From: a virus
Virus record (IMG/VR): IMGVR_UViG_3300032093_011975
Coordinates: 1-28,961 of that record
Strand: one strand, 5' to 3'
DNA: 28,961 bases
Translations under genes and position numbers: made by a program
In this document: positions 3,705 through 28,106 of the stretch, piece after piece
How positions within the stretch are numbered: the first letter of the stretch is position 1
How the letters are laid out: every line of letters begins with the position of its first letter
The notes under the pieces: generated by a model
What the model was told of the DNA's origin: nothing
Databases searched by the model: none
What the model saw: only the letters and a program-made list of their open reading frames with translations

Positions 3705-3857
3705 ATGGATACGTCAAAACACCCAACATTATATAAAAAAAAACCACTATCGGAAGTTAAAAACAGAACAACTTCTCAATTATCAAATACTGAAAAACAA
3801 AGAGTTGAGAATGTAATTGGTAAATTTTTCGAATTGTTCATAAATAAACATTTATGA
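3705..3857 (+). CDS. Small 50-residue protein of unknown function
   Basis: An ATG ten bases after the Hint stop opens a 50-residue frame ending in TGA that overlaps the start of the SET gene (ATGA). The peptide is basic in its first half (YKKKPLSEVKNR) and probably helical in its second half (STEKQRVENV-type spacing, then FFELFINKHL). The tight fit between neighbours and the coupled stop/start support a real gene. It has no recognisable domain or signal peptide. Possible roles, such as an accessory subunit for the SET enzyme or the Hint protein, are speculation from position alone. Confidence 0.55.
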   Translation: MDTSKHPTLYKKKPLSEVKNRTTSQLSNTEKQRVENVIGKFFELFINKHL

Positions 3858-4294
3858 TGGACGCATACAATTACATAAAAAATTGTGTTTTTGTAAAGTT
3901 AAAACCGAGTAATATTTCAGGGATAGGTGTTTTTGCACTCAAAGATATCCCTCACGATATTTTTTTATTCGAAAATTGGTCAGGTGAAACTGGATACTTC
4001 CCAATCACACAAAATCAGTTAAATGAATTGGACTATGAAGTCTCGAATCATATCAAAGAAATTTTTATTTATTCCTCTGATTTTCCTAAAGACACCAACG
4101 TTTATGTGAAACTAACAAATGGATGTCATTGGATTTATACAAATCCATATTATTTTATAAACAGTGGAATCTACGAAAAAAAATCTAACGTGGACAAAGA
4201 TAGTATGAAATCCTTACGTTTTATACGAAAAGGAGAAGAGTTGTTTAGCAACTATCCAAGATATGAAAAGTTAGAAAAAGTTAACTTAATATAA
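3854..4294 (+). CDS. SET-domain protein (putative protein lysine methyltransferase)
   Basis: The 146-residue protein carries GIGVFALKDI at 23-32, the usual start of a SET fold, and KGEELFSNY at 126-134, the usual C-terminal SET motif. The central catalytic and substrate block reads FINSG at 101-105 where the family normally has a NHSC-like motif, so the His is missing or displaced. SET enzymes transfer methyl from SAM to lysine side chains. No pre- or post-SET zinc region is present, which fits small viral and bacterial SET proteins. Translation is coupled to the upstream 50-residue ORF. The protein ends in VNLI. Confidence 0.7.
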   Translation: MMDAYNYIKNCVFVKLKPSNISGIGVFALKDIPHDIFLFENWSGETGYFPITQNQLNELDYEVSNHIKEIFIYSSDFPKDTNVYVKLTNGCHWIYTNPYYFINSGIYEKKSNVDKDSMKSLRFIRKGEELFSNYPRYEKLEKVNLI

Positions 4295-4295
4295 T

Positions 4296-4883
4296 ATGGA
4301 AAAAATACGAATCGGAGAAAATGAATTTGTTTACAGAAGTAAGTACCACGGATTGTTTACCAAAAATGATTTTTTATACAGATTTGCACAAAACAAAAAA
4401 ATTAGCACAATTCCAGATGATAATTCTATTTGGATTGAATTTGAATGTTCCGAATTTAAATCGATTGATTCTTTTATAATAGACTTGATTGAACGAGAAA
4501 TTGTTGGGAGTCAATTTAATTATTACGCGAAACATTCTTGGGTTTACACACAAAAAAAAGGATTTGATATGACGTATATGCATCAACATCTTCTATTACA
4601 CTCAAGTACAAATAGATCTACTATAAAATCTGACTATACTTTTACGTTTTATGTACAACAACCAAGTAACTTGACAGAAGATGAAGGAAAAATAGTTTTT
4701 AAGACCAAGGATGGAAATATTCATAAATTTTTACCTCAGGAAATGGACTTATTTATATTCCCTGCAGACATGTATCATACGGCAGTACCAACGCCGAAAA
4801 ATGACGAATTAAGGGTAGTTTATGCGGGAAATATTGCATATAACTTTTTGGATAAATCCCCTAAAAATCTCAATTTAATTTAG
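4296..4883 (+). CDS. 2OG-Fe(II) oxygenase-like protein, family A copy 1
   Basis: This 195-residue protein has a double-stranded beta-helix pattern resembling the 2OG-FeII_Oxy_5 group. Likely iron ligands are within MHQH (95-98) and H161 in MYHTAVPTP, and R173 could bind 2-oxoglutarate. The segments SDYTFTFYVQ and NEG/DEGKIVF recur in the paralog at 5418-5972. The HxD acid of classical members appears as HxH. These enzymes hydroxylate or otherwise oxidise a substrate using Fe(II), O2 and 2-oxoglutarate; the substrate is unknown. The gene starts one base after the SET stop. The C-terminus is NLNLI, beyond the end of the catalytic core. Confidence 0.65.
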   Translation: MEKIRIGENEFVYRSKYHGLFTKNDFLYRFAQNKKISTIPDDNSIWIEFECSEFKSIDSFIIDLIEREIVGSQFNYYAKHSWVYTQKKGFDMTYMHQHLLLHSSTNRSTIKSDYTFTFYVQQPSNLTEDEGKIVFKTKDGNIHKFLPQEMDLFIFPADMYHTAVPTPKNDELRVVYAGNIAYNFLDKSPKNLNLI

Positions 4884-4891
4884 TTTCCCTA

Positions 4892-5392
4892 ATGAAATTA
4901 ATAACATCAGAAGAAATTTCGTTAATAGAAAGTCTTTTTTATGGATTAAACGAGTTCCGAAAAAGAGATAGAAGTTATGAGGTCAAAATTATCGAATCAG
5001 AAATCATTATCCCAATAAAAATCAAGTTATTGAATTGGGTTTCAGAATCTTTAAATTTAAAATTCCACTCTTTCAATCAAAAATTTCAAATTTTACGATA
5101 CGATACGAATGATTTTTTTCTTCGTCATAACGATGACGACATTAAATACCGAAACGCATTTGGTAAAAATAGATATTTGGTCACTGGATTTCATTTAAAT
5201 GATGACTATACTGGCGGAGATTTCATTGTATATAATCCAAAATACGTCCTCACCAAAGAAATTGGGGTCCCTTATGTTTTCGAAGCTAATAGAGACCACG
5301 AGGTAAAAATTGTGACTAGTGGGACTCGGAGAAGTGTTGTAATGTTTATAAATCACGAAGATGTGATTTCATCGAATAATAAATTATTATGA
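4892..5392 (+). CDS. 2OG-Fe(II) oxygenase, family B copy 1
   Basis: The 166-residue protein has a clear prolyl-4-hydroxylase-like core: H79-N-D81 as the HxD motif, a GGDFIVYNP strand at 108-116, distal H136 and R146 or R147 to bind 2-oxoglutarate. Small stand-alone proteins of this type in phages are generally assumed to hydroxylate protein or small-molecule substrates, but the target is unknown here. It is most similar to the product of 9347-9844, sharing the GGDF..YNP layout, the DHE segment and the SG.R region. The gene starts eight bases after its upstream neighbour. It ends in NNKLL. Confidence 0.75.
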   Translation: MKLITSEEISLIESLFYGLNEFRKRDRSYEVKIIESEIIIPIKIKLLNWVSESLNLKFHSFNQKFQILRYDTNDFFLRHNDDDIKYRNAFGKNRYLVTGFHLNDDYTGGDFIVYNPKYVLTKEIGVPYVFEANRDHEVKIVTSGTRRSVVMFINHEDVISSNNKLL

Positions 5393-5417
5393 TGAGTTAT
5401 AATTTACCGAAAAAAAA

Positions 5418-5972
5418 ATGACACACAGTGTAAAATATAATTGGGAGTTCAATAAAGAAGAAATAGTTCAAAAAATTTATAAAAATAAAACTTTTCTAAA
5501 ACAACTTAACGGTAATACATCACAAAACACAGATGAATTAATGTTTTGTTGTAAAGAATTTGACTCCATCAAAAATTTTGTCGTTAATCAATATTTTAAA
5601 TTGAAAGAAACTGAAAAGGTGGATTATGCGGTCAGTATGTGGTCCTACATTCAAACAAAAAATTTACCTCCATCAAATTATATTTGGCACACGCACTCAA
5701 AATTAGATGGTGGTAGAACCCAATTAAAAACTGATTACACATTTGTTTTCTATGTACAAATACCTCCCAATTTAGAAAATGGAGAAGGTGACTTATTAAT
5801 AAAAGATAATGATAATTCCATTCGCACAATAACCCCAAAAGAAGGAGAAATCATTTTTTTTCCTGGATATTTATGGCATGTTCCAACACACACACCGACA
5901 GCAACTATCGACAGAATTGTTATTGCAGGAAACATAACTTCGGAATTTTTATTAAATACCTCATTGATATAA
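5418..5972 (+). CDS. 2OG-Fe(II) oxygenase-like protein, family A copy 2
   Basis: This 184-residue protein is the paralog of the product of 4296-4883. It keeps WSYIQTK, the HTH at 91-93, the KTDYTFVFYVQ strand, GEGDLLI, the distal H154 in YLWHVPTHTP and R166 followed by AGNI. The presumed metal motif is again HxH rather than HxD. The tails after AGNI differ in sequence and length between the two copies, yet both end in Leu-Ile. A 25-base gap with TTATAAT and an A-run precedes the ATG. Function is presumed Fe(II)/2-oxoglutarate oxidation of an unknown substrate. Confidence 0.65.
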   Translation: MTHSVKYNWEFNKEEIVQKIYKNKTFLKQLNGNTSQNTDELMFCCKEFDSIKNFVVNQYFKLKETEKVDYAVSMWSYIQTKNLPPSNYIWHTHSKLDGGRTQLKTDYTFVFYVQIPPNLENGEGDLLIKDNDNSIRTITPKEGEIIFFPGYLWHVPTHTPTATIDRIVIAGNITSEFLLNTSLI

Positions 5973-5977
5973 TAGAC

Positions 5978-6454
5978 ATGATAACTTACATACCAAATTT
6001 TCTAAGTAACCCCGAATGTGAATATTATATTGATTTGTTCAAATCAAATGATGTAGAATTTATGGAATGGATTCAAACGTATAATAAATTTGGTGATGAT
6101 GATGTGCTAAAATTTTATTATAACGACTTGACAGAGAATAGATTTGAAACCGATAAATTTCCAAATTATATTTTCAAAACATTAAGAATACAAATGGTGA
6201 ACGAATCTATAGACCAATGTAAAGCTCCACACACTCATGTGAATCCATGGTCGTTTGTTATTTTCCTGAATGAAAATTTCATTGGGGGAGAATTAGTTTT
6301 CGATAATATCGAATATGAACCAAAAACAGGAGATATGGTTTATTTTTCTGGGGAAGAGAGGCACAAACTTAACAATTGTGTCGGTGATAGATATACTCTC
6401 ATCGGAGGGATGCAAAATAATCCTTTAAACGTGAAAACAGGAAAATTAATTTGA
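5978..6454 (+). CDS. 2OG-Fe(II) oxygenase-like protein, family C copy 1
   Basis: I start the gene at the ATG at 5978, giving 158 residues, because the similar neighbour begins at the equivalent residue (ITYIPNFL against IVYYENFL) and the longer in-frame extension back to 5873 overlaps the upstream gene out of frame. The core has PHTHVNPWSF at 84-93, GGELVFD at 103-109, KTGDMVYFSG at 116-125, the distal H129 and R138. The presumed metal motif is H85-T-H87, again without the Asp. It starts five bases after the previous stop. The tail is NNPLNVKTGKLI. Confidence 0.65.
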   Translation: MITYIPNFLSNPECEYYIDLFKSNDVEFMEWIQTYNKFGDDDVLKFYYNDLTENRFETDKFPNYIFKTLRIQMVNESIDQCKAPHTHVNPWSFVIFLNENFIGGELVFDNIEYEPKTGDMVYFSGEERHKLNNCVGDRYTLIGGMQNNPLNVKTGKLI

Positions 6455-6461
6455 ATGTGGA

Positions 6462-6908
6462 ATGATTGTTTATTATGAAAATTTTTTGAATTCATCAGAA
6501 TGTGAGTACTTTACGGATTTATATAAAATAGAAAACGACCAGTATTGCGATGATGATATTTACAAATTTTATTTTATTAATTTAATAGGAAGAGAATTAA
6601 TTACCGATAGGTTTTCAACCTTTATATTCAAGAAGTTTAGAGTTCAAATGCTCAACGAATCAATAAATCAGTCTACTATCCCACATCGGCACGTAAATCC
6701 TTGGTCTTTCATTATTTTTCTTAACGATAATTTTACAGGAGGTGAAGTAATTTTTGACAAAATAAGCTATACCCCCAAAACAGGAGATATGATTTATTTT
6801 TCAGGTGAAGAAAACCATAAAGTCAATAATTGTATTGGAAATAGATATACCTTAGTTGGATTTATGCACAATAACCCAATGAATGTAAAAAAAAACACTC
6901 TTATATGA
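6462..6908 (+). CDS. 2OG-Fe(II) oxygenase-like protein, family C copy 2
   Basis: The 148-residue protein is a tandem paralog of its upstream neighbour. It shares LNSSECEY at the start, PHRHVNPWSF at 74-83, GGEVIFD, KTGDMIYFSGEE, H119 and NRYTLVGFMHNNP. The metal motif is H75-R-H77. It starts seven bases after the previous stop, and its stop overlaps the next ATG (ATGA), coupling it to the SGNH hydrolase. It ends in KKNTLI, whereas copy 1 ends in KTGKLI: the last two residues are kept while the preceding ones differ. The substrate is unknown. Confidence 0.65.
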   Translation: MIVYYENFLNSSECEYFTDLYKIENDQYCDDDIYKFYFINLIGRELITDRFSTFIFKKFRVQMLNESINQSTIPHRHVNPWSFIIFLNDNFTGGEVIFDKISYTPKTGDMIYFSGEENHKVNNCIGNRYTLVGFMHNNPMNVKKNTLI

Positions 6909-7729: not shown

Positions 7730-7765
7730 TAATGATAAAAAAAAAATTTTTGTTATTATATATCT
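7730..7765 (+). promoter_or_regulatory. AT-rich gap with candidate promoter before the radical SAM gene
   Basis: This 36-base spacer is one of few gaps longer than 25 bases in the block. It contains a run of A, then TTTTTG, then TTATTATATAT close to the ATG. It could hold a promoter or simply be an A/T-rich leader. No Shine-Dalgarno site is present. Confidence 0.2.
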
Positions 7766-8815
7766 ATGAACTCAGAGGTAGACTTAAAAAAATATTTTTG
7801 TACAGTACCATTCAAAAACTTGGAGATTCACACTAATGTCTGTTTTGCATGCTGTCCATCTTGGTTGCCAAACAAAATAGAAACCTCAGAAGTTCCTTTG
7901 AAGGAAGTTTGGAATAGTACTCCAATGACTGACATTCGGGAATCAATAATTGATGGATCCTTCAAATACTGTGATAAAGAATTATGTCCTTATTTGAGTA
8001 AACTTATCAACTTTGGTGAAACATCTGGCCCCGTCCAATTGAAAACTGAATCTACACCTAAATCTCCATTTTTGAATGAAGGACCAAAAGTCTTGGTAAT
8101 GAATTTCGATAGGACTTGTAATTATAAATGTCCATCTTGTAGAGTAGATTTGATTGTAGAGGATAAAAAAGGAATACAACGAGTAGAAAAAACAATAGAG
8201 GAAATAGATTCCTTTTACTCCAAGGACGTTAAGACATTATATATAACAGGTTCAGGGGACCCATTTATATCCGTAGGTTTCAGAAACTACTTGCGTAATT
8301 TTGACCCCAAGAAATATCCTAAACTGAAGTCGATTCATTTTCATACTAATGCATCGATGTGGAATAAAGAAATGTGGGATAGTATGCCAAATGTTCACAA
8401 ATACGTCAAAAGTTGTGAGATAAGTATAGATGCTGGGACAAAAGATACTTACGAAAACAAAACAAGATTAGGAGGAAAGTGGGATAATCTTATAGAAAAT
8501 TTAAATTTCATAAATACAATTCCGAGTTTGAAATATGTCAAAACATCATTTGTAGTACAAGATTCGAACTACAGGGAGATGGAATTATTCTACAATATAA
8601 TGTACTCAATTTTCGGAAAAAAAGTTGGGGTGTTCTTTGGAAAAATAACTAACTGGGGAACATTCGGTGAAGATGAATTTAAATCGAAACAAGTATGGGA
8701 TAATTCGCATCCCGAACATGAATTATTCAAAGAAGAATTCAATAAAATTAGTAAGAACAAATATATGTTCCATAACTTACACGAATTTACAGATAAAACC
8801 AAAACTTTGATATAA
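7766..8815 (+). CDS. Radical SAM protein with an N-terminal twitch/SPASM-like cysteine cluster
   Basis: The 349-residue protein has the radical SAM CxxxCxxC motif at C118, C122 and C125 (TCNYKCPSC), which holds a [4Fe-4S] cluster and generates the 5'-deoxyadenosyl radical. Supporting elements are the TGSGDPF strand (GGE-like region) and SIDAGT. Before this domain lie C12, C26, C29, C30, C69 and C74 in a layout like a SPASM or twitch auxiliary-cluster domain (FCTVPF, CFACCPSW, YCDKELCP). Related proteins modify peptides or small molecules, but the reaction cannot be assigned. The end overlaps the sulfotransferase start (TAATG). It ends in KTLI. Confidence 0.75.
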   Translation: MNSEVDLKKYFCTVPFKNLEIHTNVCFACCPSWLPNKIETSEVPLKEVWNSTPMTDIRESIIDGSFKYCDKELCPYLSKLINFGETSGPVQLKTESTPKSPFLNEGPKVLVMNFDRTCNYKCPSCRVDLIVEDKKGIQRVEKTIEEIDSFYSKDVKTLYITGSGDPFISVGFRNYLRNFDPKKYPKLKSIHFHTNASMWNKEMWDSMPNVHKYVKSCEISIDAGTKDTYENKTRLGGKWDNLIENLNFINTIPSLKYVKTSFVVQDSNYREMELFYNIMYSIFGKKVGVFFGKITNWGTFGEDEFKSKQVWDNSHPEHELFKEEFNKISKNKYMFHNLHEFTDKTKTLI

Positions 8816-9375
8816 TGAAAATATTGGTATTATCTCATACTAGAAGTGGTTCTACTACCTTATGTAAATGGATTTCGAGGGAGATGAAGATTGAGTTGGA
8901 TGAAACTCCATATAATAAAAAAACTTTCTATTCAGTTTTTGATAAGAAAGATATAGTTAGAAAAATAGTCATTGAGGAATTCACACCTCCAAACCATGTA
9001 ATTCTTAAATTTGATAAAGTAATTTGTTTGACCCGTGATGATAGTGTTGAAACTGCGATAAGTTTCATCATGGCAAAAAAAACTGATAAATGGCATGTCG
9101 AATATGATATTACTAATGATTGGATTATTGAAAATAAAAATGAAATAATACGGAGGAAAAATTGGTATGATAGTATGAAATCAGTCCTAAAAAAATATGA
9201 TGTACTACAATTAAAATATGAAAACATTTATATCAATAAAACAGAATTGAAATTATTAACTGACTACCTGAATATTACAAGCCCCCAACATTTACATTTA
9301 CTTGATTACACTAAAAAATATAGAAAAGATAGATTCCAATTGATTCATGATTTTGAAAGAAAAGATATTATTTAG
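8815..9375 (+). CDS. Sulfotransferase-like protein
   Basis: The 186-residue protein begins with LSHTRSGSTTLCKW, the 5'-phosphosulfate-binding loop of PAPS-dependent sulfotransferases (residues 7-19). KVICLTRDDSVETAIS around 69-84 fits the 3'-phosphate-binding segment with its conserved Arg and Ser. It is shorter than cellular enzymes, which are usually above 250 residues. It would sulfate a glycan, peptide or small molecule in the cytoplasm. Its 3' end overlaps the next gene by 29 bases in another frame. The C-terminus is KDII. Some small proteins with this fold are kinase-like, so the exact reaction is uncertain. Confidence 0.65.
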   Translation: MKILVLSHTRSGSTTLCKWISREMKIELDETPYNKKTFYSVFDKKDIVRKIVIEEFTPPNHVILKFDKVICLTRDDSVETAISFIMAKKTDKWHVEYDITNDWIIENKNEIIRRKNWYDSMKSVLKKYDVLQLKYENIYINKTELKLLTDYLNITSPQHLHLLDYTKKYRKDRFQLIHDFERKDII

Positions 9376-9844
9376 TGCGAAGGAATGTCAATCTATAATT
9401 TGGGACGAAACCAAAAATATAAATAATCATTCCTATGTAAGTGATAGAAGATATAACTCACAGCCAATAAACTATAGTGAAGATACTAAATGGATATTTG
9501 AGAAAATATCTGAGTTTTTTCAAGAAGAAACTAAGTTAAAAATTACTACAATCAAAAATAAAATCCACTTTCATAAATTCGTTGCTGGAGATTGGTTTGG
9601 AAAACATAATGATGCAATTGACAACAGAGTTTATGCGGTTGGGGTTCTATTGAATGAAAATTTTGAGGGTGGTGACTTTAAATTGTACAATCCCCACGAG
9701 TATACGTTAAATAAAACTATTGGAAACAGTTACATATTTGAAGTAAACATAGACCATGAAATCACACCAATTTTAAGTGGAGAAAGATATTCTCTGTTAT
9801 GGTTTTTACAGAAAGATAATTTGATTACAAAAACAATAATTTAA
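9347..9844 (+). CDS. 2OG-Fe(II) oxygenase, family B copy 2
   Basis: The 165-residue protein has H87-N-D89 (HxD), GGDFKLYNP at 108-116, distal H137 and R147, giving a complete canonical facial triad plus 2-oxoglutarate anchor. It is the paralog of the product of 4892-5392, though about 4 kb away. The ATG at 9347 lies inside the sulfotransferase gene, but it is the only Met in the protein and the residues just after it fit the family start, so the 29-base overlap is accepted. It ends in TKTII. The substrate is unknown. Confidence 0.75.
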   Translation: MILKEKILFSAKECQSIIWDETKNINNHSYVSDRRYNSQPINYSEDTKWIFEKISEFFQEETKLKITTIKNKIHFHKFVAGDWFGKHNDAIDNRVYAVGVLLNENFEGGDFKLYNPHEYTLNKTIGNSYIFEVNIDHEITPILSGERYSLLWFLQKDNLITKTII

Positions 9845-11011
9845 ATGGAAATAGATTTTTGGTTTACAGATATATTCAAAGGGTCAGGTATTCAAGAAAT
9901 GCTAGAAAAAATAGACACAAATATTTCATTCAAAAATGTTGATACAGACGTAATTGATTCAAATAAATTGAACCTATTAGTTTTTGTTTGGGAAACAAGT
10001 CCAAAACTTCCATACACAACATACACTACTTCGGATGAATTTATAGATTTACTCAAAAAACTTCAGAATGAAAAGTTTTACTTCATGGCGGATTTTTCAA
10101 GAGAAGCCCATAACAGAGTAGACGATTTGAGCTTGTCTTTTTTAAATAAATTGAAATCCAATGGAATAGACATCAACCGATTAATTCTTGTAAAAAATGA
10201 TTCCTCAAAAATCGGTTTACACAAAATGAAATATGAGAATTTTACATTGAATACATTTTTCTTTCCCCACTTTTTCTTATCAACATATAACCATCTCAAA
10301 CAATATATTAACCCCGAAAACGAAAGGACAAAAATAGAACCAGATAAAAAATTTCTGTGTTTAAATCGGAGGGTATTTTATCACAAGTATCAAATTATTG
10401 AAGAGTTGTTCAAAAGAGGTTTATTGGATGAAACACGGCTAACTTGGGTGGACAATTATACCCCTCTCAAAATGATCGATTTAGATTTGGCACATAAACT
10501 AAAATTAAATGGTCTCGAGTTCAAATCCATACAATTAGAAGGTGATGTCATGTACGGTAGTAGACTATCATATCACGACGAATTCTTATTTACAATTAAC
10601 CCAGAATGGTATTACAAGAGTAAAGTAGATATAATTACTGAAACAATGTTATATGACGAGGCAATACATATCACCGAGAAAACTTACAAATCAATTTATT
10701 TAGGATTACCATTTGTTGTATCCGCGACCAAAGGACATCTGAAACATTTACGAGACATGGGGTTCAAAACCTTTAATTCAATCATAAATGAGGATTATGA
10801 TGGAATGAGTGGTAAAAATAAAATAAAACACGTTGTTGATGCCGCAATCGAGTTATCAAATGTCTATGACAACCCTGAAGTATTAGAAATATGTAAATTT
10901 AATAAAGAATTATATTTTAACCCTGAATTTCGTAAGAAAATTTGTAAAGAATTTTTCTTAGACAAATTACATGAAATCAAAGATAAATCACATTCTAGTT
11001 CATTAATTTAA
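9845..11011 (+). CDS. Putative glycosyltransferase (exostosin/GT-B-like C-terminal region)
   Basis: The 388-residue protein has a FLCLNRRVFYHKYQIIEEL segment near residue 177 and ITEKTYKSIYLGLPFVV around 277-293, followed by GHLKHLRDMGFKTF. The latter pattern is typical of the donor-binding half of exostosin- or fucosyltransferase-like glycosyltransferases found in phage and LPS clusters. The layout is repeated in the product of 18933-20150 on the other strand. No membrane segment is apparent. It starts immediately after the oxygenase stop without any Shine-Dalgarno site. The tail is rich in Ser and ends SSSLI. The family call rests on pattern memory. Confidence 0.5.
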   Translation: MEIDFWFTDIFKGSGIQEMLEKIDTNISFKNVDTDVIDSNKLNLLVFVWETSPKLPYTTYTTSDEFIDLLKKLQNEKFYFMADFSREAHNRVDDLSLSFLNKLKSNGIDINRLILVKNDSSKIGLHKMKYENFTLNTFFFPHFFLSTYNHLKQYINPENERTKIEPDKKFLCLNRRVFYHKYQIIEELFKRGLLDETRLTWVDNYTPLKMIDLDLAHKLKLNGLEFKSIQLEGDVMYGSRLSYHDEFLFTINPEWYYKSKVDIITETMLYDEAIHITEKTYKSIYLGLPFVVSATKGHLKHLRDMGFKTFNSIINEDYDGMSGKNKIKHVVDAAIELSNVYDNPEVLEICKFNKELYFNPEFRKKICKEFFLDKLHEIKDKSHSSSLI

Positions 11012-11015
11012 ATTT

Positions 11016-11828
11016 ATGGAATCATTGAAATACTGGTCTCCCAATGATTTTGAAATTTCATCATTAAGATATAAACTTAATGGTCAAAAAAGAGTAAAAG
11101 AGTTTAGAACTCCAACAAGCACTGAAACTAAATCTTGCACCTATACCTACAATGATTTGGGATATAGAGGAGACTCAATGCATAAAAAGGGCTTTCGTAT
11201 TATGTCAATTGGATGTTCATTGACTGAAGGAGTTGGTATTAATGATGATGAAACATGGCCCAATCAATTCACAAAAATGATTACTGATGGTGTAGATTTA
11301 AACTTTGGTTGTGGAGGAAGGAGTAACGATTATATTAGTCGGTGTTTGTTGAGTTATTATGATTTGATTAAACCCAACTTAGTTTTAATAATGTACACTT
11401 CTTTGGAAAGACGGGAGGTTTGGGCTAAAATTGATGGGGTAAAACCATTTATGCCTCCTTGTTGGGGCTATTTAAGAGAAACTGATGAAGGAAAAAAAAT
11501 ATGTAATAATTTGATTGATTTACAAAACGGTGATTCTGATTTCATAAACTGGTATAAAAATCATTTGTTAATAAAATTATTCTTGGAATCAAAAAAATGC
11601 AATTGGATTTGGAATGGTTCGTTTGGAGTTCATAAAGAGTTCAAGGAATACAATAGATTTGACGGAGATTATATGAGTGATTCATTTATTGACTTAGCAT
11701 CTGATGAGTCCCATCCAGGCCCAAAACATAATAAAGAATACGTTATTAAATTATTCAATCATTTGAACCAAAACTTTCCGAATTATTTATCGAATGATCA
11801 CCATTCTATTAACCAAAAATTATTTTAA
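11016..11828 (+). CDS. SGNH hydrolase, tandem copy 1
   Basis: The 270-residue protein has a 60-residue N-terminal region with YWSPNDFEISS and CTYTYNDLGYRGDS. The SGNH blocks follow: IGCSLTEGVG (S68), NFGCGGRSND (oxyanion Gly and Asn), IMYTSLERREVW, and SDESHPGPKHN with the Asp three residues before the His. Cys replaces the Asp of the classical GDS. The family hydrolyses or transfers acyl groups, often on glycans. It is one of three adjacent paralogs and differs by a tail after FPNYL that ends QKLF. No secretion signal is visible. Confidence 0.7.
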   Translation: MESLKYWSPNDFEISSLRYKLNGQKRVKEFRTPTSTETKSCTYTYNDLGYRGDSMHKKGFRIMSIGCSLTEGVGINDDETWPNQFTKMITDGVDLNFGCGGRSNDYISRCLLSYYDLIKPNLVLIMYTSLERREVWAKIDGVKPFMPPCWGYLRETDEGKKICNNLIDLQNGDSDFINWYKNHLLIKLFLESKKCNWIWNGSFGVHKEFKEYNRFDGDYMSDSFIDLASDESHPGPKHNKEYVIKLFNHLNQNFPNYLSNDHHSINQKLF

Positions 11829-11830
11829 AA

Positions 11831-12613
11831 ATGAAATCTCTCCAATTTTGGAAACCTGAAACATTCGAAATTTCTTCATACAAATATCACCTTGACGGTA
11901 AGAAAAATAAATCCTTTAGTACATCAGGAAGTGATAATACAGGATTGTGTACATATACATATAATGAATTAGGATTTAGGGGAGATTCAATCAATAAATC
12001 TGGATTCAAAGTAATGTCGATCGGGTGTTCATTAACCGAAGGAGTCGGTGTAAATGACGATGAAACTTGGCCTTACCAATTTACCCAACTCATACCCGAC
12101 AGTGTGAATTTAAATTTTGGGTGTGGTGGTAGGAGTAATGATTATATACTCAGATGCTTAGTCACCCACTATGATTTAATTAATCCTGATTTGGTATTAA
12201 TAATGTATACCTCTCCTCAGAGAAGAGAAATATATACAGATAATGGTGGGATTGAACCATTTATTCCAACATTATCTTGGGGGTATATGGATGAGACTGA
12301 AAGAGGAAGAGAAATCCAAAACTGCTTGATAGAATTACAAAATGATAATGAAGATTTTATCAATTGGTATAAAAATCACATAACTACAAAATTATTTTTG
12401 GAATCAAAAAATTGTAATTGGTTATGGAATGGATCATTTGGTATACCTAAAAAATACTCGGAATTCAATAGGTTTGATGGTGATTATATGAATGAACCAT
12501 TTTTGGATTTGAGTGTTGAAGGTTTACATCCTGGTCCAACACATAATAAATCTTATGTGGATAAATTGATGAACCATATACAAGACAATTTCCCGAATTA
12601 TTTAATCAAATGA
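11831..12613 (+). CDS. SGNH hydrolase, tandem copy 2 (Asp to Glu in block V)
   Basis: The 260-residue protein is collinear with its neighbours: FWKPETFEISS, CTYTYNELGFRGDS, IGCSLTEGVG (S67), GGRSNDYI, MYTSPQRREIY and LHPGPTHNKSY. In block V the residue three before the His is Glu (VEGLH), while copies 1 and 3 have Asp. This could weaken the catalytic triad or still support it. The protein stops at NYLIK, lacking the polar tail of the other copies. The stop overlaps the next start by four bases (ATGA). Confidence 0.7.
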   Translation: MKSLQFWKPETFEISSYKYHLDGKKNKSFSTSGSDNTGLCTYTYNELGFRGDSINKSGFKVMSIGCSLTEGVGVNDDETWPYQFTQLIPDSVNLNFGCGGRSNDYILRCLVTHYDLINPDLVLIMYTSPQRREIYTDNGGIEPFIPTLSWGYMDETERGREIQNCLIELQNDNEDFINWYKNHITTKLFLESKNCNWLWNGSFGIPKKYSEFNRFDGDYMNEPFLDLSVEGLHPGPTHNKSYVDKLMNHIQDNFPNYLIK

Positions 12614-13410
12614 ATTCAGACTCACTACGATATTGGACTCCCAATCAATTTGAGTCTTCGTCCATGAGATTCAAAATAAACAAAAAAAAGATTCAACTGG
12701 GGACTGATAATACTGGATTATGTACTTACACCTATAATGAACTCGGATTCAGGAGTGATTCAATATACAATAAGGGATTCAAAATCATGTCAATAGGTTG
12801 TTCAAACACTGAAGGAGTAGGTGTGAATGATAATCAAACTTGGCCTCATCAATTTTCTAAATTGATTTCCAATGGAATAGATTTAAATTTCGGTGCATCG
12901 GGTCGAAGTAACGATTATATTTCAAGATGTTTGTTAAGTTATTATGACTTGATAAAACCTGATTTAATTTTGATAATGTACACTTCACCTCAAAGACGCG
13001 AGGTATATACAAAAAATTCAGGAGTAAAACCTTTTCTGTATGAAGATTCTTGGGGATTTTTGCGTGAGGCCGAAGAAGGCAAAATGATTCAAAATAATTT
13101 ACTTCTATTACAAAATGAGAATGAAGATTTTATGAATTGGTATAAGAATCATTTATTAATTAAATTATTTTTAGAATCAAAAAAATGTAATTGGATATGG
13201 AATGGTTGGTTTAACATTCCTCCTGAATATTTAGAATTTAATCGATTTGATGGGTTATATGGAAAGTTTGTGGATTACGGTACTGATGGAGGCCATCCTG
13301 GCCCCCAACACAATAAAACATATGCAGAAAAACTATTCAAACACATAGAGACAAACTTTCCAAGCTATTTACCAAATGAAAATCAAACTTACACAAGTAA
13401 TTTGATTTAA
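12610..13410 (+). CDS. SGNH hydrolase, tandem copy 3
   Basis: The 266-residue protein repeats the architecture of the two preceding genes: YWTPNQFESSS, CTYTYNELGFRSDS, IGCSNTEGVG (S64), SGRSNDYI, MYTSPQRREVY, and GTDGGHPGPQHN with Asp three before His. The oxyanion block reads GASGRSND where the others have GCGGRSND. It carries a 12-residue tail after FPSYL that ends TSNLI. Its TAA shares the palindrome TTAA with the stop of the convergent minus-strand small gene, so it is the last gene of the plus block. Confidence 0.7.
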   Translation: MNSDSLRYWTPNQFESSSMRFKINKKKIQLGTDNTGLCTYTYNELGFRSDSIYNKGFKIMSIGCSNTEGVGVNDNQTWPHQFSKLISNGIDLNFGASGRSNDYISRCLLSYYDLIKPDLILIMYTSPQRREVYTKNSGVKPFLYEDSWGFLREAEEGKMIQNNLLLLQNENEDFMNWYKNHLLIKLFLESKKCNWIWNGWFNIPPEYLEFNRFDGLYGKFVDYGTDGGHPGPQHNKTYAEKLFKHIETNFPSYLPNENQTYTSNLI

Positions 13411-13523
13411 TGGTTGTAAATAAAAGGATCTCTTTTCTTTAATTCTTCAATTTTCTTTTTCAATTCTTTTTTTCTTTTTCGTTCCTTAATTTTTTTAAGG
13501 AACCAATCTATAATTTTTTTCAT
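13407..13523 (-). CDS. Small basic 38-residue protein of unknown function
   Basis: The ATG overlaps the stop of the carbamoyltransferase gene (ATGA on the minus strand). The frame encodes 38 residues starting MKKIIDWFLKKIKERK, continuing as a Lys/Glu-rich helix and ending KKRDPFIYNH. The sequence looks like a short amphipathic or coiled-coil helix with an aromatic tail; similar small peptides ending in a DPFIY-type motif occur, as far as I recall, in marine phages, but I cannot verify this. It ends exactly against the plus-strand SGNH stop. The coupling supports translation. Its function is unknown. Confidence 0.5.
   Translation of the reverse strand: MKKIIDWFLKKIKERKRKKELKKKIEELKKRDPFIYNH
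13481..13503. repeat. Perfect 9-bp inverted repeat (GTTCCTTAA / TTAAGGAAC, 5-base loop)
   Basis: GTTCCTTAA at 13481-13489 is the exact reverse complement of TTAAGGAAC at 13495-13503, with TTTTT between. It lies inside the 38-residue minus-strand ORF, near the point where the two operons converge. It lacks a G/C-rich stem and a following T-tract on either strand, so it does not look like a classical intrinsic terminator, although it sits where one would be useful. Confidence 0.5.
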
Positions 13524-18400: not shown

Positions 18401-18936
18401 TTTGTGTATAATTGGGGATATTCAACAATAACATGAATTCCTCCTTCATTGTAAGCTTCTTTGTACTTATCTTCAATTAATTCATGAGATAATAGATTAT
18501 GAAATGTAATATTTTTACAAAGTGACTGATACTCAGTGAAATAATCCCCTTTGTGTTGATGTCCTGGGTCTATCGGATAATCCGACCCTTTACCTAATCT
18601 GACAATTATATTGGGATTGAATTGATTATTGCTCATCAATTTTATTTTGTCCAAATGATTCAATAATTGATTTGTAGCACAAATCAAAAAATCCCATCTG
18701 GGGTAAAAAGTAATCACGAAATGTCCAGTCATCGCCATTCCCAAAGACATACCCATTTGTGAATCCTCCATTACTGGTAATTCAATAATTTTATTTTTTG
18801 GAACATTTCCCAACGTTGTACTCATTGGGTTTCCTGGATAAAGAGTTTGTTGTCCAATAAAAATTGTATCGGATTGTTCGGCTAAAAAAGTCATTGCATT
18901 TGTCAATGCATCCTTATAACTTGTATCTTGATTCAT
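18397..18936 (-). CDS. TPP-dependent enzyme, E1 beta-like pyrimidine-domain subunit (short)
   Basis: The 179-residue protein matches the Pyr domain of 2-oxoacid dehydrogenase E1 beta or transketolase: SYKDALTNAM at the start, FIGQQTLYPGNPMSTT, then ELPVMEDSQMGMSLGMAM (52-69), where E57 would be the glutamate that activates TPP. Classical E1 beta is about 325 residues and has a C-terminal transketolase domain, which is absent. Its partner is the 209-residue alpha-like protein, separated from it by a glycosyltransferase-like gene. Together they would make a minimal TPP enzyme, perhaps transferring a two-carbon unit to a sugar. It overlaps both neighbours by ATGA. Confidence 0.7.
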   Translation of the reverse strand: MNQDTSYKDALTNAMTFLAEQSDTIFIGQQTLYPGNPMSTTLGNVPKNKIIELPVMEDSQMGMSLGMAMTGHFVITFYPRWDFLICATNQLLNHLDKIKLMSNNQFNPNIIVRLGKGSDYPIDPGHQHKGDYFTEYQSLCKNITFHNLLSHELIEDKYKEAYNEGGIHVIVEYPQLYTK

Positions 18937-20150
18937 ATTAAACTATTGTAGAAATTAAAGTCTGTTTTGTCATTTTTGATGTCTTCGAAAATTTGAATAT
19001 TTTTATCGAAACGATTTTTATTATTCTTGAAAAAACTTATTATATCTTGTTTTTTGGTGTTCAATCTTAAGATTTCATTGATAATCATTTCAAATCTTTT
19101 TTTTGCATTTGGTTCATTGTCATAACTATGATCGACAATATCATCGAAAAAATCAAAATTATACCTATCCTTCATTTTTTTAATATGATTTGCACTTGCC
19201 ATTATGATTGGAATTTGAGAAAAATATAAAGGTATAAAAGATTTTTCACTCAGGATTATAATATCATTTTTTTCAAAATTGGTTTCAGTAACTATGTTAA
19301 TGTATGAATTTTTGTATGGATTGTTTGAATAAGAGGCAACTGTGTCGAATGTATGAGGAGGATAATCAACTTGATAATTTTTTTCGTAAATGCTATTATG
19401 TATTTGAACATCAAGAAGTTTGATAATTTCTTTTTCATATATCAAAACCTCACTTTCAGTAAAGAATTGACTCAAATATGGTTTGAAATTTGAAAGACTG
19501 CCCGAATTGATGAAAAGTTCTCTCATTTCATATCCCCTTATCCAACTCCAATCTGTATCGTCAACTATGTTATGGTACATCAAATAAACTAATAGAGCGA
19601 ACCGATGTATTTTCACCTTTCGATTATATGACATGAATAAAAAATTTCTCTCTTTTTTGTAATTGTAAGGAAATCTGGTCAATTCATTAGCAATTGCGAA
19701 CTTTCCATTATTAGTTGTATGAGTAATCAAATCAACATCAAACTTTGTTTTTACATCATGATTGATTTCATTACAATTAATTACTACAAATTTTTTGGTA
19801 GGAATACCCATTTTTTTCAATAGGGCATCGAGACTATTGATTAAATTATCATCATCAGATTCAGCATCGTTCTTAACTATCACATAAAAATTCGGATTGA
19901 ATTTTAATAAGTCAATTACCTTTTCACTGAAGGGTAAATCTTGTTTTGAAACAATTTCTGCCGCTAAATAATATCGATATTCATAAAAATAATAATACTT
20001 TTGATTATCGTTAGGAATTTCATTGATGTTGAAAACTTTGAATTTGAACCCTTCAGGATTACGCATTCCTACATAACAATCAAAATAATTGATTACATCC
20101 TGTTTGAATACATCGACCTCATCATAAACTAAATTCAAAAAATTACCCAT
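18933..20150 (-). CDS. Putative glycosyltransferase, distant paralog of the 9845-11011 product
   Basis: I take the ATG at 20150 (405 residues); a GTG at 20174 would lengthen the overlap with the E1 alpha-like gene. The protein has FLFMSYNRKVKIHRFALL near the middle and NIVTETNFEKNDIIILSEKS, then FIPLYFSQIPIIMAS and HIKKMKDRYNFDFF, the same order as FLCLNRR, IITETMLY, ITEKTYKS and HLKHLRDMGFKTF in the plus-strand paralog. This resembles the donor side of GT-B or exostosin-like transferases. It sits between the two halves of the TPP enzyme. It ends in FYNSLI with an ATGA overlap to the next gene. Confidence 0.45.
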   Translation of the reverse strand: MGNFLNLVYDEVDVFKQDVINYFDCYVGMRNPEGFKFKVFNINEIPNDNQKYYYFYEYRYYLAAEIVSKQDLPFSEKVIDLLKFNPNFYVIVKNDAESDDDNLINSLDALLKKMGIPTKKFVVINCNEINHDVKTKFDVDLITHTTNNGKFAIANELTRFPYNYKKERNFLFMSYNRKVKIHRFALLVYLMYHNIVDDTDWSWIRGYEMRELFINSGSLSNFKPYLSQFFTESEVLIYEKEIIKLLDVQIHNSIYEKNYQVDYPPHTFDTVASYSNNPYKNSYINIVTETNFEKNDIIILSEKSFIPLYFSQIPIIMASANHIKKMKDRYNFDFFDDIVDHSYDNEPNAKKRFEMIINEILRLNTKKQDIISFFKNNKNRFDKNIQIFEDIKNDKTDFNFYNSLI

Positions 20151-20764: not shown

Positions 20765-20767
20765 AAC

Positions 20768-21379: not shown

Positions 21380-21388
21380 ATGAATAAT

Positions 21389-21796: not shown

Positions 21797-21797
21797 T

Positions 21798-22805: not shown

Positions 22806-23758
22806 TTAAATTTTAATTTATACCAATCAATCGTCTCTTTTATTCCTTCTTTGAAAGTGTGTGTTGGTTCAAATCCCAATTCATTTTTTATCCTATCAAT
22901 ACTTACTGCTCGGAAAGGTATTGTTGTCGGTTTTGAATCATCCCAAACAATTTTAGGTGTTTCATCTGTGACTTCCAAAATAGTATTCAATATTTCTCCA
23001 ATAGAGATTCCACCTCCGTAACCTAAATTATATGGTCTCATTGATTCTCCTTTTTCAAGAATCAAAAGACCTCCTTTAACAACATCTTTTACATATAAAA
23101 AATCTCTTACAACATCGGGAGTACCCCACACTACGAACGGGTTTTCACCACTTAATAATCGTTTAATTAGTGCTGGAACAACATGACAAGTTTTCAAATC
23201 GAAATTGTCATAAGGTCCGAATATTGCAGTACCTCTTGCGATACAGATCTCCATATCACCCAACCGTGATACGTGCTCCATAAGTTTTTCTCTATATCTT
23301 CTCATCCACCCATACCCATAATAAGATTTATAAGGTTCATCAATCCAAAACTCATCTTCGGTCAATGGTCTTCTTATGTCGGGATAGCCAGTGGAACTAT
23401 TCAAATCTAAGAATCTTTTTACTTTTGATTTGTAAGATGCTTCTAACACATTTCCAATTATTTGTATTTGTTTCAGAGAAATTTGTACGTCTGTTGGAAC
23501 TGTCGATGGATGTGCTATTTGCCCTGCGCAATGAATTACGTAATCTGACCCTTCAACAAGTTTGAAACAATCTTCCAGTTTTGTTAAGTCTAAATTTTCA
23601 TGAACGAAAATATCATCATGATTATACTGTAATGGAGATTTGTGAGTATGTGTTACAACTTTTGCTCCTTGATTTACAAGTTCAATCAAATAATGAGTAC
23701 CAATGAATCCTGACCCACCTGTGACTACAACTTTTTTATTTTTAAAAAAATCTTTCAT
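22802..23758 (-). CDS. NAD-dependent sugar epimerase/dehydratase (extended SDR), copy 1
   Basis: The 318-residue protein has GGSGFIG at 14-20, HCAGQIAHPS, LNSSTGYP, and IARGTAIFGPYDNFD, all typical of nucleotide-sugar SDRs. The expected YxxxK catalytic motif reads YGWMR, so Lys is replaced by Arg or shifted; this deserves caution about activity. VVRDFLYVKDVVKG and the C-terminal GFEPTHTFKEGI are normal for the family. It may be an epimerase/reductase acting after GMD and the ColD-like enzyme, as GDP-fucose synthase or ColC do. It is coupled by ATGA to both neighbours. Confidence 0.7.
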   Translation of the reverse strand: MKDFFKNKKVVVTGGSGFIGTHYLIELVNQGAKVVTHTHKSPLQYNHDDIFVHENLDLTKLEDCFKLVEGSDYVIHCAGQIAHPSTVPTDVQISLKQIQIIGNVLEASYKSKVKRFLDLNSSTGYPDIRRPLTEDEFWIDEPYKSYYGYGWMRRYREKLMEHVSRLGDMEICIARGTAIFGPYDNFDLKTCHVVPALIKRLLSGENPFVVWGTPDVVRDFLYVKDVVKGGLLILEKGESMRPYNLGYGGGISIGEILNTILEVTDETPKIVWDDSKPTTIPFRAVSIDRIKNELGFEPTHTFKEGIKETIDWYKLKFK

Positions 23759-24426
23759 ATCAATTTATTTGTTTCGATATATCTTTTGTATGAAATTTCA
23801 CGTTTTCCTATTCCTATTGCGTCATCCAAAAATAAATCACATGGGTCATTGTGAATATAATTTGACAATGAACTACCATATAATAATTCATTTTTCACAA
23901 AAATTAAGTTTCCTGTCATACAAACTAACGAATAATCCTTAGTTTTAGCTAAATCAACAGTCGACTTGAAACTACTACTGAAAGTTTTACCATCATAGAC
24001 ATGTTCAGTCTGACAATCGAAAAAGGGATTTATTTCTATAACAACAACATTAGGAGTATAATCATTAAGACTATTCCATATATGATAGTCATTTCCGTCA
24101 ATATCAATACTAAGTATGTCAAAATTTAATTCCAAATCAGTTTTTTTCAAAACATTATCCAATCGACTATCTCCAAGTGGAGTTATTTCTTCGTGAATAA
24201 TTATACCCCCCTCTAACTGTGGTAAATGAAAAGGATTTTTATCAATATAAACTCCATACCATCCGTAGTTTTGAACTAAATTATATGTATTGGAGAAAAT
24301 AAGATGATTCATTCCTACCTCACAACACTGTTTGTTATTCAACTTTAACTCATCGATTAAAAATTGCAAAACTCCATCTTCTCCATACTGAGAATATATT
24401 GAATATGAATTGTCAATTATTTTCAA
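23755..24426 (-). CDS. FkbM-like methyltransferase-fold protein
   Basis: The 223-residue protein opens with SIYSQYGEDGVLQFLIDEL, a signature of an FkbM-related group, then CCEVGMNH (SAM motif I region), YGWYGVYIDKNP (acidic strand) and DILSIDIDGNDYHIW, which parallels the DxD/E region of FkbM proteins. Motif I lacks the usual G-x-G, so SAM binding is not assured. It lies between two SDR genes and overlaps both by four bases, so it is probably an O-methyltransferase of the sugar pathway. It ends in TNKLI. Confidence 0.55.
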   Translation of the reverse strand: MKIIDNSYSIYSQYGEDGVLQFLIDELKLNNKQCCEVGMNHLIFSNTYNLVQNYGWYGVYIDKNPFHLPQLEGGIIIHEEITPLGDSRLDNVLKKTDLELNFDILSIDIDGNDYHIWNSLNDYTPNVVVIEINPFFDCQTEHVYDGKTFSSSFKSTVDLAKTKDYSLVCMTGNLIFVKNELLYGSSLSNYIHNDPCDLFLDDAIGIGKREISYKRYIETNKLI

Positions 24427-26574: not shown

Positions 26575-26591
26575 AATAATAAAAATAAAAT

Positions 26592-27326
26592 TTATTCGAC
26601 TGAAGTCAAAGACTTATCCAATATTAATTTCAAAAGATGTATGGGTATGTTTATCGGATTGTGTAGACCGATTGGGGTTGGATAGAAAATATCTTCAACA
26701 CTAAACTGCATTGCTGTCAGTATATCAGGTAGTTCATTTTCATTCATATATTTAACAAAAAAAATATCTTCCCAAATATCTTTTTCTGTTTCATGTTTTT
26801 TTAAATATTCGATTATTTTTGATTTTTTTCTAATCGATAAACCTCCGTTCCCTACAAACTTACCCTCTTTAGGTTTTGACCAAGGTGCTCCAATAAAATC
26901 ATATTTCAAAAAATTTTCAGGAATTTCTCTCAACAACAACGAATCAATTTGAAAATTAAGTATTGTGTCCCCTTCAACTAACTCCCAAAAATCTAAACTT
27001 TTTAATAATTCAGTATGAGATATTTTGTCAATATCTTCTATATCCAATTCAGTCAAGATTACATTTTCCCAATCATTGACAATTTTACTAATAAAATTTT
27101 TATTACTTTTACTATGAAAAATTTGTAACCCCCACTTTATCTCAGAATTATTTTTATTTAAAAAATAAATGTGATTTTTCAAAATTTGTTCAAAATTAAT
27201 CACAGTTCTATTCTCAATTATTATTGAATTGAAATCGGAATTTTTTTTTAATAAAGGTTTGAACTCCTTTGTTTTTTCACAAAATTTATTCAAGTAGTCG
27301 TTTAGTATGGAGTGTTGAAGGGTCAT
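26592..27326 (-). CDS. DUF5672-like protein (glycan-cluster family, possible glycosyltransferase)
   Basis: The 244-residue protein has the DUF5672 block: LNFQIDSLLLR (123-133), FLKYDFIGAPWS (139-150), VGNGGLSIRKKSKI (158-171) and WEDIFF near 185. Family members sit beside glycosyltransferases in LPS and capsule clusters and resemble GT-A folds, with QxDS acting as the likely DxD equivalent. The N-terminal 60 residues are Lys/Asn-rich and unassigned. It lies between an SGNH hydrolase and the ColD-like enzyme. It ends LTSVE, without the Leu-Ile tail. Donor and acceptor are unknown. Confidence 0.65.
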   Translation of the reverse strand: MTLQHSILNDYLNKFCEKTKEFKPLLKKNSDFNSIIIENRTVINFEQILKNHIYFLNKNNSEIKWGLQIFHSKSNKNFISKIVNDWENVILTELDIEDIDKISHTELLKSLDFWELVEGDTILNFQIDSLLLREIPENFLKYDFIGAPWSKPKEGKFVGNGGLSIRKKSKIIEYLKKHETEKDIWEDIFFVKYMNENELPDILTAMQFSVEDIFYPTPIGLHNPINIPIHLLKLILDKSLTSVE

Positions 27327-27332
27327 TTTTTT

Positions 27333-28106
27333 TCAAATCAACTTTTTTTCAATTATGTGTTTGTAAAATAGTTCGAACTGAACAAGGTGTCCTTTTTCCC
27401 CCATATGTGTATCAACAACTTGCCAATTGGTTTCTTCCCCAACTGTTACTCCTCCATATTCGTAAAAAACATCAAATATCGTCCTTTTCATACTTGTTCG
27501 ATGTATTTGTATATGTTTTTCATAAGGGATTGCAAATGGTATATTATTTATTAGGTCACCCAAAATATACTTTCTGTCAATTAATCGTTCCGTTGGTAAA
27601 TCATTTATTATGTCTACGTCTGCCGACCAAAAAAAAACTTCAAACCCTTTTGATTTTGAATATTCGAATATTAAATTTTCATTTTCATAAATTTCTTCGA
27701 TACAAGGAGGAAGAAGTTTATGTAAAGCAATATCGTTTCTAGTGTCTTCTGAAATTACAGTTCCATCATGAGGATTACCTCCTAATCTCACCCATTTATA
27801 ATTTCGGTCATCATCTGACCAAGTAACCCAACGAAACCTACTTGGATAGGTCCAATTTATAATCACTATATCATCTTTTTTAAATTCATGAGAGTGTCTA
27901 CAAATTGTTTGGAAAATTTCTGAATTTGACATACCTGCAATCGCATGATTTGCCATTTCCATGCCTAACTTTTCTGAAAGTAATTCTCCCCAACATGGAG
28001 GAAAATCCCCTCCTCTATATTTTTTCCATTCTTTAAATGGTGGGAATGTCAAATCAAGTTTATGACCTTCGGTAAAACTATCTCCGAATAAATGTAACTT
28101 TTTCAT
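27333..28106 (-). CDS. SGNH/GDSL-type hydrolase
   Basis: The 257-residue protein opens HLFGDSFTEGH (S10), a classical GDS block, then ANHAIAGMSNSEIFQ with the oxyanion Gly and Asn, WTYPSRFRWV, and VVDTHMGEKGH for block V with Asp two residues before His. The N-terminal half differs from the GCS-type copies on the plus strand and is closer to the neighbouring 212-residue SGNH protein. It starts three bases after that gene. Esterase or acyltransfer activity on a glycan is likely by family. It ends IIEKKLI. Confidence 0.68.
   Translation of the reverse strand: MKKLHLFGDSFTEGHKLDLTFPPFKEWKKYRGGDFPPCWGELLSEKLGMEMANHAIAGMSNSEIFQTICRHSHEFKKDDIVIINWTYPSRFRWVTWSDDDRNYKWVRLGGNPHDGTVISEDTRNDIALHKLLPPCIEEIYENENLIFEYSKSKGFEVFFWSADVDIINDLPTERLIDRKYILGDLINNIPFAIPYEKHIQIHRTSMKRTIFDVFYEYGGVTVGEETNWQVVDTHMGEKGHLVQFELFYKHIIEKKLI

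Follow-up and report, generated by a model that had tools for sequence, protein, structure and literature searches.

The virus record IMGVR_UViG_3300032093_011975 (28,961 bases, GC content 31%; the whole of this stretch is called the window below) carries a large gene for a protein with intein-like domains, designated the hub here, followed by genes for putative modifying enzymes, many of which end in the same two residues, Leu-Ile. The hub gene (956..3694, + strand; family cl4) encodes 912 residues without such a tail and matches the Pfam Intein_splicing/Hint models and the NCBIfam models of the N- and C-terminal intein regions. Its N-terminal domain (956..1798, residues ~1-281, the end being placed by comparison with relatives) is predicted from a model of relatives to have an ATP-grasp-like fold. 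It is followed by a degenerate Hint domain (1820..2332), recognized by motif positions, which lacks the first Cys and ends in Ser-His-Asn, and whose equivalent in relatives has an intein fold. Three canonical Hint domains come next, all assigned by Pfam and motif positions and the last also by NCBIfam: Hint 1 (2339..2785, CFVAGT ... ILVHN), Hint 2 (2789..3238, CFVKGT ... ILTHN) and Hint 3 (3242..3691, CFISGT ... ILVHN-K).

The genes downstream of the hub on the + strand begin with a SET-like protein (3854..4294, tail KVNLI; family cl23), whose Pfam match lies 0.1 bit short of the cut-off, and a run of 2OG-Fe(II) oxygenases or oxygenase-like proteins (4296..4883, NLNLI, matched only through PHROG 81; 4892..5392, Pfam, variant tail NNKLL; 5418..5972, NTSLI, below the Pfam cut-off; 5978..6454, TGKLI, and 6462..6908, KNTLI, both above it). 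Then follow a radical SAM enzyme (7766..8815, KTKTLI; Pfam and NCBIfam), a Stf0-like sulfotransferase (8815..9375, variant tail RKDII) and a further oxygenase (9347..9844, variant tail TKTII), the latter two named by family search, a protein of family cl3 (9845..11011, SSSLI) and two proteins that are SGNH-like by clustering (11016..11828, variant tail NQKLF; 12610..13410, TSNLI). On the - strand lie a carbamoyltransferase identified by family search (13520..15187, variant ending HKIL; 7/22 family members end [LIFM][IL] and none LI), a protein without a family name (16413..17153, RDRNLI; 3/4 family members end LI), a second cl3 protein that clusters with the first (18933..20150, YNSLI), a protein without a family match that had been called a methyltransferase (23755..24426, TNKLI) and an SGNH-like protein (27333..28106, EKKLI). 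An earlier, sequence-only reading of the window had named most of these folds. Its radical SAM label stands, its SET label narrowly misses the cut-off, and its oxygenase labels for the LI-tailed genes hold fully for the last two of the run. The SGNH label of 27333-28106 is carried by clustering with 28110-28748, a Lipase_GDSL match above the cut-off, and that of 12610-13410 by clustering with 11831-12613, itself a sub-threshold GDSL match. No family match was obtained for the glycosyltransferase and FkbM labels given to tailed genes, including both cl3 proteins, and the family searches left several tailed proteins without a name.

The Leu-Ile tail itself is confirmed. The twelve proteins for which it had been described end in Leu-Ile, with N, S, T or K before it in 12/12, and the endings KLL (4892-5392), DII (8815-9375), TII (9347-9844), KLF (11016-11828), KIL (13520-15187) and PI (6905-7729) were likewise read correctly. 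Leu-Ile thus closes 12/34 genes of the window (12/36 when two genes cut by its ends, neither tailed, are counted), compared with a Leu-Ile frequency of 0.82% within the same proteins (binomial p ~4e-17). Among stop triplets in any frame, 47/3704 (1.3%) are preceded by Leu-Ile codons. Automatic gene calls come from a greedy longest-ORF script, not from a trained gene finder; in the window they give 11/33, the gene 5418-5972 being dropped for overlap.

Relatives were collected from viral contigs in three scans, whose queries were the radical SAM protein, an oxygenase and the 9845-11011 protein; these yielded loci L002-L139. The share of ORFs ending LI is 7 to 83% in L002-L108 and 0 to 8% in L109-L139. 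Rows with identical last 60 residues were removed before counting (3444 to 2376); near relatives remain, which makes the counts non-independent. Leu-Ile flagged 22 clusters, of which 18 were kept as tail families, and cl20, cl32, cl45 and cl73 were set aside by eye and counted among the other families. Because the tail families were picked for bearing the tail, the motif, codon, linker and enzyme-class counts below describe families so chosen, and a Fisher p for the enzyme-class contrast cannot be taken at face value. Their 518 members give a consensus of about K-x-[KN]-[TSKN]-[LIF]-[IL]-COOH. Position -1 is I in 0.69 and L in 0.14, position -2 is L in 0.67, I in 0.16 and F in 0.06, and position -3 is T in 0.29, K in 0.20, S in 0.18 and N in 0.13, Thr being 5-fold enriched there. 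At position -4, K (0.45) and N (0.21) prevail, and the enrichment of K extends to -7. The proposal that the tail is a signal holds in that the motif is C-terminal, encoded at the protein level and common to unrelated enzymes; Leu-Ile alone proves too narrow a definition, since LL, II, FI and IL variants occur. Endings of the form [LIFM][IL] are scored as tailed below.

The tail is conserved at the protein level and is not a DNA or start-context effect, because its codons diverge like internal ones and LI is equally common before convergent and overlapping genes. For the codon and linker comparisons, homologue pairs were sampled randomly, up to 40 or 60 per family. In 347 pairs of 35-75% identity with LI tails on both members, the tail Leu codons agree in 176 (0.51), compared with 1747/3412 (0.51) at internal conserved Leu residues, and the tail Ile codons in 206 (0.59), compared with 1942/3691 (0.53) at internal Ile. 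The tail is encoded by 14 different codon pairs, and its Leu codons track internal use (TTA 0.69 vs 0.63, TTG 0.13 vs 0.17). In the tail families, the LI share is 117/221 for genes overlapping the next one, 100/194 at 0-30 nt, 33/69 at more than 30 nt, 16/27 before a convergent gene and 2/7 at a contig end; the other families give 12/545, 4/481, 5/502, 8/306 and 1/24, respectively. The gene ending at 13410 was correctly described as having no downstream partner on its strand, the next gene (13520-15187) being convergent. The partner keeps an [LIFM][IL] ending in 57 to 100% of homologue pairs, depending on the family, while residues -14 to -5 are identical in only 9 to 36% at an overall mean identity of 30-56%. 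As judged by the class of downstream context and by homologue pairs, the tail appears to persist in changed surroundings. An AT-rich start context, a gene overlap or a promoter of the next gene, yielding Leu-Ile by composition, had been offered by the sequence-only reading as the alternative to a signal. The low GC content of the window, the close succession of most tailed genes and the over-use of ATA for the tail Ile (0.66 vs 0.45 internally) speak for it, but the divergence of the codons, the similar LI share in all contexts, the excess of 12/34 over both the internal and the stop-triplet frequencies, the enrichment of Thr at -3 and the lack of the tail in other genes of the same genomes contradict it, so that this explanation is hardly credible and start context and composition are ruled out. 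It is also very improbable that the tailed genes copied their 3' ends from one ancestor by recombination and retain the tail without present function. Several families are indeed paralogous arrays (cl0, cl2); however, the families do not cluster by sequence, 14 codon pairs occur, the linkers are unlike, and the tail has been retained despite the low mean identity of the proteins.

The tail is not genome-wide. LI endings were counted in 12/409 genes of G001, 13/380 of G002, 9/208 of G003, 8/209 of G004 and 14/117 of G007, that is 2.9-4.3% in four whole relatives and 12% in the closest one, and in 1/188 of the T4-like control G011, which rules out a genome-wide C-terminal bias. Genome-wide frequency and downstream context, the first refuting check set by the sequence-only reading, did not refute a signal; the scope of this signal is now refined to one gene cassette around the hub rather than the proteome. 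T4-like Gp23 and terminase exceed the cut-off in G001 and G002, as in T4-like jumbo myoviruses, and are also carried by G011; neither is among the named genes of the window, a fragment that was not searched with these two models. T4-like ancestry as such is ruled out as the source of the tail by G011 and by the oxygenases and their neighbours in the Prochlorococcus phage P-RSM4 and the Synechococcus phage ACG-2014g, of which 18 were listed and 0/18 end [LIFM][IL]. Short ORFs of ~97-149 residues in G001 (302958-303137), G003, G005, G006, G008 and G009 match a small inner part of Gp23, exceeding the cut-off only in G001 and G008.

Tailed genes are concentrated around the hub. In 45 distinct loci, they make up 67/73 genes at +1 kb downstream of the hub, 69/82 at +2, 47/62 at +3, 42/60 at +4, 32/48 at +5, 25/50 at +6, 18/45 at +7, 5/40 at +8 and 1/38 at +9 kb, and upstream 27/59 at -2 kb, 23/50 at -3 kb and 1/26 at -7 kb. 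Counting redundant loci, 87/87 hub occurrences show a tailed gene within six neighbours on either side. With the hub as the sole query, a set blind to the tail was obtained; the best 80 of 252 matches included 72 new loci, which gave 38 distinct hubs, and 22 of these had not been in the first set. From +1 to +8 kb, tailed genes number 56/75, 57/68, 34/53, 34/56, 26/42, 24/49, 12/45 and 5/38 for the 38 hubs and 28/45, 30/39, 20/31, 14/34, 12/24, 12/30, 4/25 and 4/23 for the 22 independent ones, 21/22 of which are accompanied by a tailed gene at 8 kb or less. Near these 22 hubs, strict LI is less frequent (8/45 at +1 kb and 13/39 at +2 kb). A profile of the N-domain finds the hub in 81/107 of the loci L002-L108, and in 24 of the 26 other loci the first tailed gene starts within 0.8 kb of one end of the locus, L037 among them holding a hub fragment.

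The hub is predicted to combine an ATP-grasp-like domain with one or more intein-like Hint domains. Most relatives' hubs (~495 residues) have the N-domain and only one Hint, which is degenerate, with a Cys-rich peptide behind it; in the window hub, the degenerate Hint is followed in tandem by three canonical repeats, and the protein ends HN-K. In a full model of a relative's hub (L105 5103-6593, pLDDT 81.8), residues 278-461 match inteins (4o1s, Z 14.3, rmsd 2.6, 146 aligned residues), including a Clostridium (Cth) BIL (Z 14.0). H459-N460 is invariant in an alignment of 32 sequences (A1), and HN closes every Hint of the window. The first intein Cys is present in Hint 1-3 of the window and is not conserved at the Hint start in the branch with a Cys-rich core, where the N-terminal nucleophile (Cys/Ser/Thr) of a splicing intein is thus missing; therefore, only C-terminal cleavage is expected there. 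The N-domain model of a relative (pLDDT 91) is closest to glutathione synthase (1m0w, Z 9.0, rmsd 5.2, 223 aligned residues), followed by YjfC, YgiC and glutathionylspermidine synthetase and, lower, by RimK, ArgX/LysX and tubulin tyrosine ligase. Sixteen of its positions are invariant in 50 sequences including the window's, among them the acidic, basic and other residues D9, E22, N24, K169 and R224. A search of the N-domain against a viral structure library gave no match below E 0.001.

A peptide of 25-56 residues follows His-Asn in 71/83 hub sequences (45 and 38 pooled, repeats included), the window's not being one of these. Its Cys content is 18.7%, compared with 0.6% in the hub body. The number of Cys is 6, 8 or 10 and is even in 71/71 peptides, 56/56 distinct ones and 43/43 clusters at 70% identity; other residues tested are even in about half of the peptides, except Lys (12/56). 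The peptide is hypervariable: where the hub body is 0.66 identical (bin 0.6-0.7, 225 pairs), the peptide is 0.38 identical. Cys-core hubs thus show a conserved leader and a variable core, whereas the window hub has no such core. The even Cys number at such divergence suggests full disulfide pairing. One 211 kb phage contig (L254 and L258) holds two different hubs with unlike Cys peptides.

The tailed families look like modifiers of an acceptor. Endings of the [LIFM][IL] type are found in the 2OG oxygenases (cl0 116/137, cl9 27/30), radical SAM enzymes (cl1 43/56), Stf0-like sulfotransferases (cl5 37/40), SGNH families (cl2 32/50, cl7 20/36), cl3 (27/46, without a family match) and SET-like proteins (cl23 10/10), and, near hubs, in cl19 (13/13), cl6 (38/39) and the Zn-ribbon-like cl8 (26/33). 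The start of cl6 resembles a sulfotransferase motif; the family has no family match save one at chance level. Together, ten tailed modifier families give 362/456. In contrast, eight donor or precursor families (SDR/GMD, DegT, TPP subunits, TagD-like, PNP, APS kinase and cl10) show 0/98 tailed members; if cl10, a family with no match and a guessed label, is left out, the count is 0/72. The earlier statement that enzymes making sugar donors lack the tail is thereby upheld. Untailed families of a kind like the tailed ones also exist, namely cl33 (FkbM), cl109 (oxygenase) and cl86 (C-methyltransferase). Within 8 kb of the hub, the 2OG oxygenase family occurs in 45/45 loci and radical SAM in 40/45, figures biased by the fact that the loci were found through such enzymes. 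Also near the hub in the 45 loci are an untagged APS kinase (cl14) in 15 (for example, L160 19215-19649), a DUF2061 membrane protein (cl13) in 18 and the small cl10 protein in 19 (L104 1357-1952 is an example from these two families). Because APS kinase makes a sulfo donor, its presence fits sulfation as one of the reactions. An IscU scaffold and an IscA-type Fe-S protein lie near one hub (L254 7334-8066), and similar-looking genes occur at G001 315818-316550.

These observations can be explained by a mechanism in which modifying enzymes are brought to the hub by their tails, the hub being a precursor or scaffold resembling those of ribosomally synthesized and post-translationally modified peptides (RiPPs); this is the reading that we favour, with confidence a little above even. 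The tail would be a short C-terminal targeting or docking motif on the variable ends of enzymes that modify a common acceptor, and would lead these enzymes to a single hub, whose gene usually lies next to theirs. The hub would be a precursor built of an ATP-grasp-like domain, a Hint domain ending His-Asn and, in most cases, the hypervariable Cys peptide behind the scissile Asn. Tagged oxygenases, radical SAM enzymes, sulfotransferases, SGNH enzymes and others would dock and modify either this peptide or some other product bound to the hub; through Asn cyclisation, the Hint domain would then free what has been modified. The tail has the hub as its constant partner, also in the window lineage. 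Because this lineage swaps the Cys peptide for three Hint repeats while the tails persist, the docking site would be the conserved N-domain or the first Hint rather than the peptide. Glutathione synthase, RimK and ATP-grasp enzymes of their kind use C-terminal carboxylates, so that a carboxylate pocket in the hub is plausible and the tail might even be ligated. We infer from these features that the hub is the receptor of the tail, that the peptide is the substrate and that binding, modification and release follow in this order. The collagen-repeat tail-fibre protein of G001 (294170-296197), which has a Peptidase_S74 end and lies a few kb downstream of a tailed cassette, is a possible alternative acceptor.

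The receptor may instead be another phage or host protein, for instance one with a PDZ-like domain, a chaperone, a factor for secretion or virion packaging, or a protease that sets the time at which the enzymes are removed, the cassette merely encoding the enzymes; we consider this unlikely, yet it deserves to be taken seriously. T or S is the third-last residue in 0.47 of the members of tail families, in keeping with the [ST]-x-hydrophobic-COOH pattern of class I PDZ ligands; proteases and chaperones commonly recognize free hydrophobic C-termini; and carriers outside the cassette, 11/21 of them from other families, need no adjacent hub gene. However, the tails peak within 7 kb of the hub and mark families that modify acceptors, not those that make donors. 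The hub is present in five whole relatives and G013, and the 11 records in which it was not found come from L109-L139, the loci in which LI endings are scarce. No PDZ-like gene was noticed in the cassettes, though no systematic PDZ search was made. Another possibility, which we regard as improbable, makes the tail the substrate: the hub ATP-grasp domain would activate the C-terminal Ile/Leu carboxylate and ligate it to an amine of the hub peptide, a Lys side chain, an amino acid or a polyamine, so that tagged enzymes become covalently joined. The nearest folds include enzymes acting on C-terminal carboxylates of peptides or proteins, and both acidic and basic residues are invariant in the N-domain; but the fold match is distant, and we know of no ATP-grasp enzyme that conjugates a set of enzymes.

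Several findings weigh against recruitment to the hub. The ATP-grasp match is distant (rmsd 5.2), and the N-domain profile found no ATP-grasp match, or any other, among PDB sequences. Twelve of the 83 hub sequences were not scored as Cys-core: eight, including the window's, end HN-K or HN-KV, L088 has another end, and three are fragments that end Cys-rich. Of the 22 independent hubs, one lacks any [LIFM][IL] gene in the surrounding 8 kb; this is probably the hub of L254 (0/5 scored neighbours, two of which end TLF). In L095 the carriers are distant from the hub, which sits elsewhere in the contig, and L099 (G014) has tailed genes without a detected hub, the first of them 1.5 kb from the contig end. 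In G001-G004, 21 high-scoring carriers lie outside the cassettes, 10/21 belonging to cl5, cl7 or cl3 and 11/21 to other or singleton families; therefore, proximity to the hub is not required. Some cassette enzymes, including 236-907, 6905-7729 and 20768-21379 of the window, have no tail, and a group of cassette oxygenases of family cl0 (L018, L071, L096 and others) is untailed and shares another ending, LNFWFH or FWFYK.

Recruitment to the hub has partial parallels in known systems. In RiPP biosynthesis with leader recognition (RRE; proteusins with large folded leaders), as here, an encoded precursor with a folded leader and a hypervariable C-terminal Cys-rich core is surrounded by radical SAM, oxygenase and transferase genes. 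Unlike in RiPP systems, the short recognition motif sits on the enzymes instead of the precursor, ATP-grasp and Hint domains form the leader, and the even Cys numbers suggest disulfides, the modification being putative. The hub shares with BIL/Hint autoprocessing, Hedgehog and PT-HINT proteins an intein fold ending His-Asn before a possibly released C-terminal part, but its Cys-core branch lacks the first Cys and is fused to an ATP-grasp-like domain. Like peroxisomal PTS1, PDZ ligands and encapsulin cargo peptides, the tail consists of a few residues at the free C-termini of unrelated proteins; its motif differs, it occurs in phages on a set of modifying enzymes, and no compartment is known. 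RimK, LysX-ArgX with LysW, tubulin tyrosine ligase and glutathione synthase pair an ATP-grasp fold with a peptide C-terminus, as proposed here, whereas here the C-termini belong to many enzymes and ligation is putative. Docking motifs and domains of non-ribosomal peptide and polyketide synthases (NRPS/PKS) are likewise short terminal elements uniting successive enzymes, but they are pair-specific, and here one tag is common to all.

A tblastn search with the L105 hub gave no match in 50,697 phage records, and tblastn searches of cultured phages with the window radical SAM protein, the 9845-11011 protein and a protein of the Zn-ribbon family gave none either. Oxygenase matches to cultured phages are weak, comprising 4 records, and 94 with cl19, mostly cyanophages; two phages read among the 4 records of the first search lack the tail. 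A pattern scan covering 84,980 species of bacteria and archaea, each represented by one genome, revealed no hub relative. A literature search at the level of titles and abstracts found no description of the tail or the hub there.

A wider formulation, which is tentative and which we hold as doubtful, is that of a phage ribosomal-peptide pathway, in which the ATP-grasp-Hint hub makes a hypervariable disulfide-rich peptide and its ATP-grasp domain reads, or perhaps covalently ligates, the C-terminal carboxylate tag common to a changeable set of modifying enzymes; an enzyme would then enter the pathway simply by acquiring the tag. If this is true, modification lines would be assembled in a new way, by means of a universal C-terminal tag, with enzymes freely swapped as long as a few residues are kept, and such a tag may be useful for peptide engineering. 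Phages would then make their own processed Cys-rich peptides, for which the host surface, a competitor, a receptor or the virion are candidate targets.

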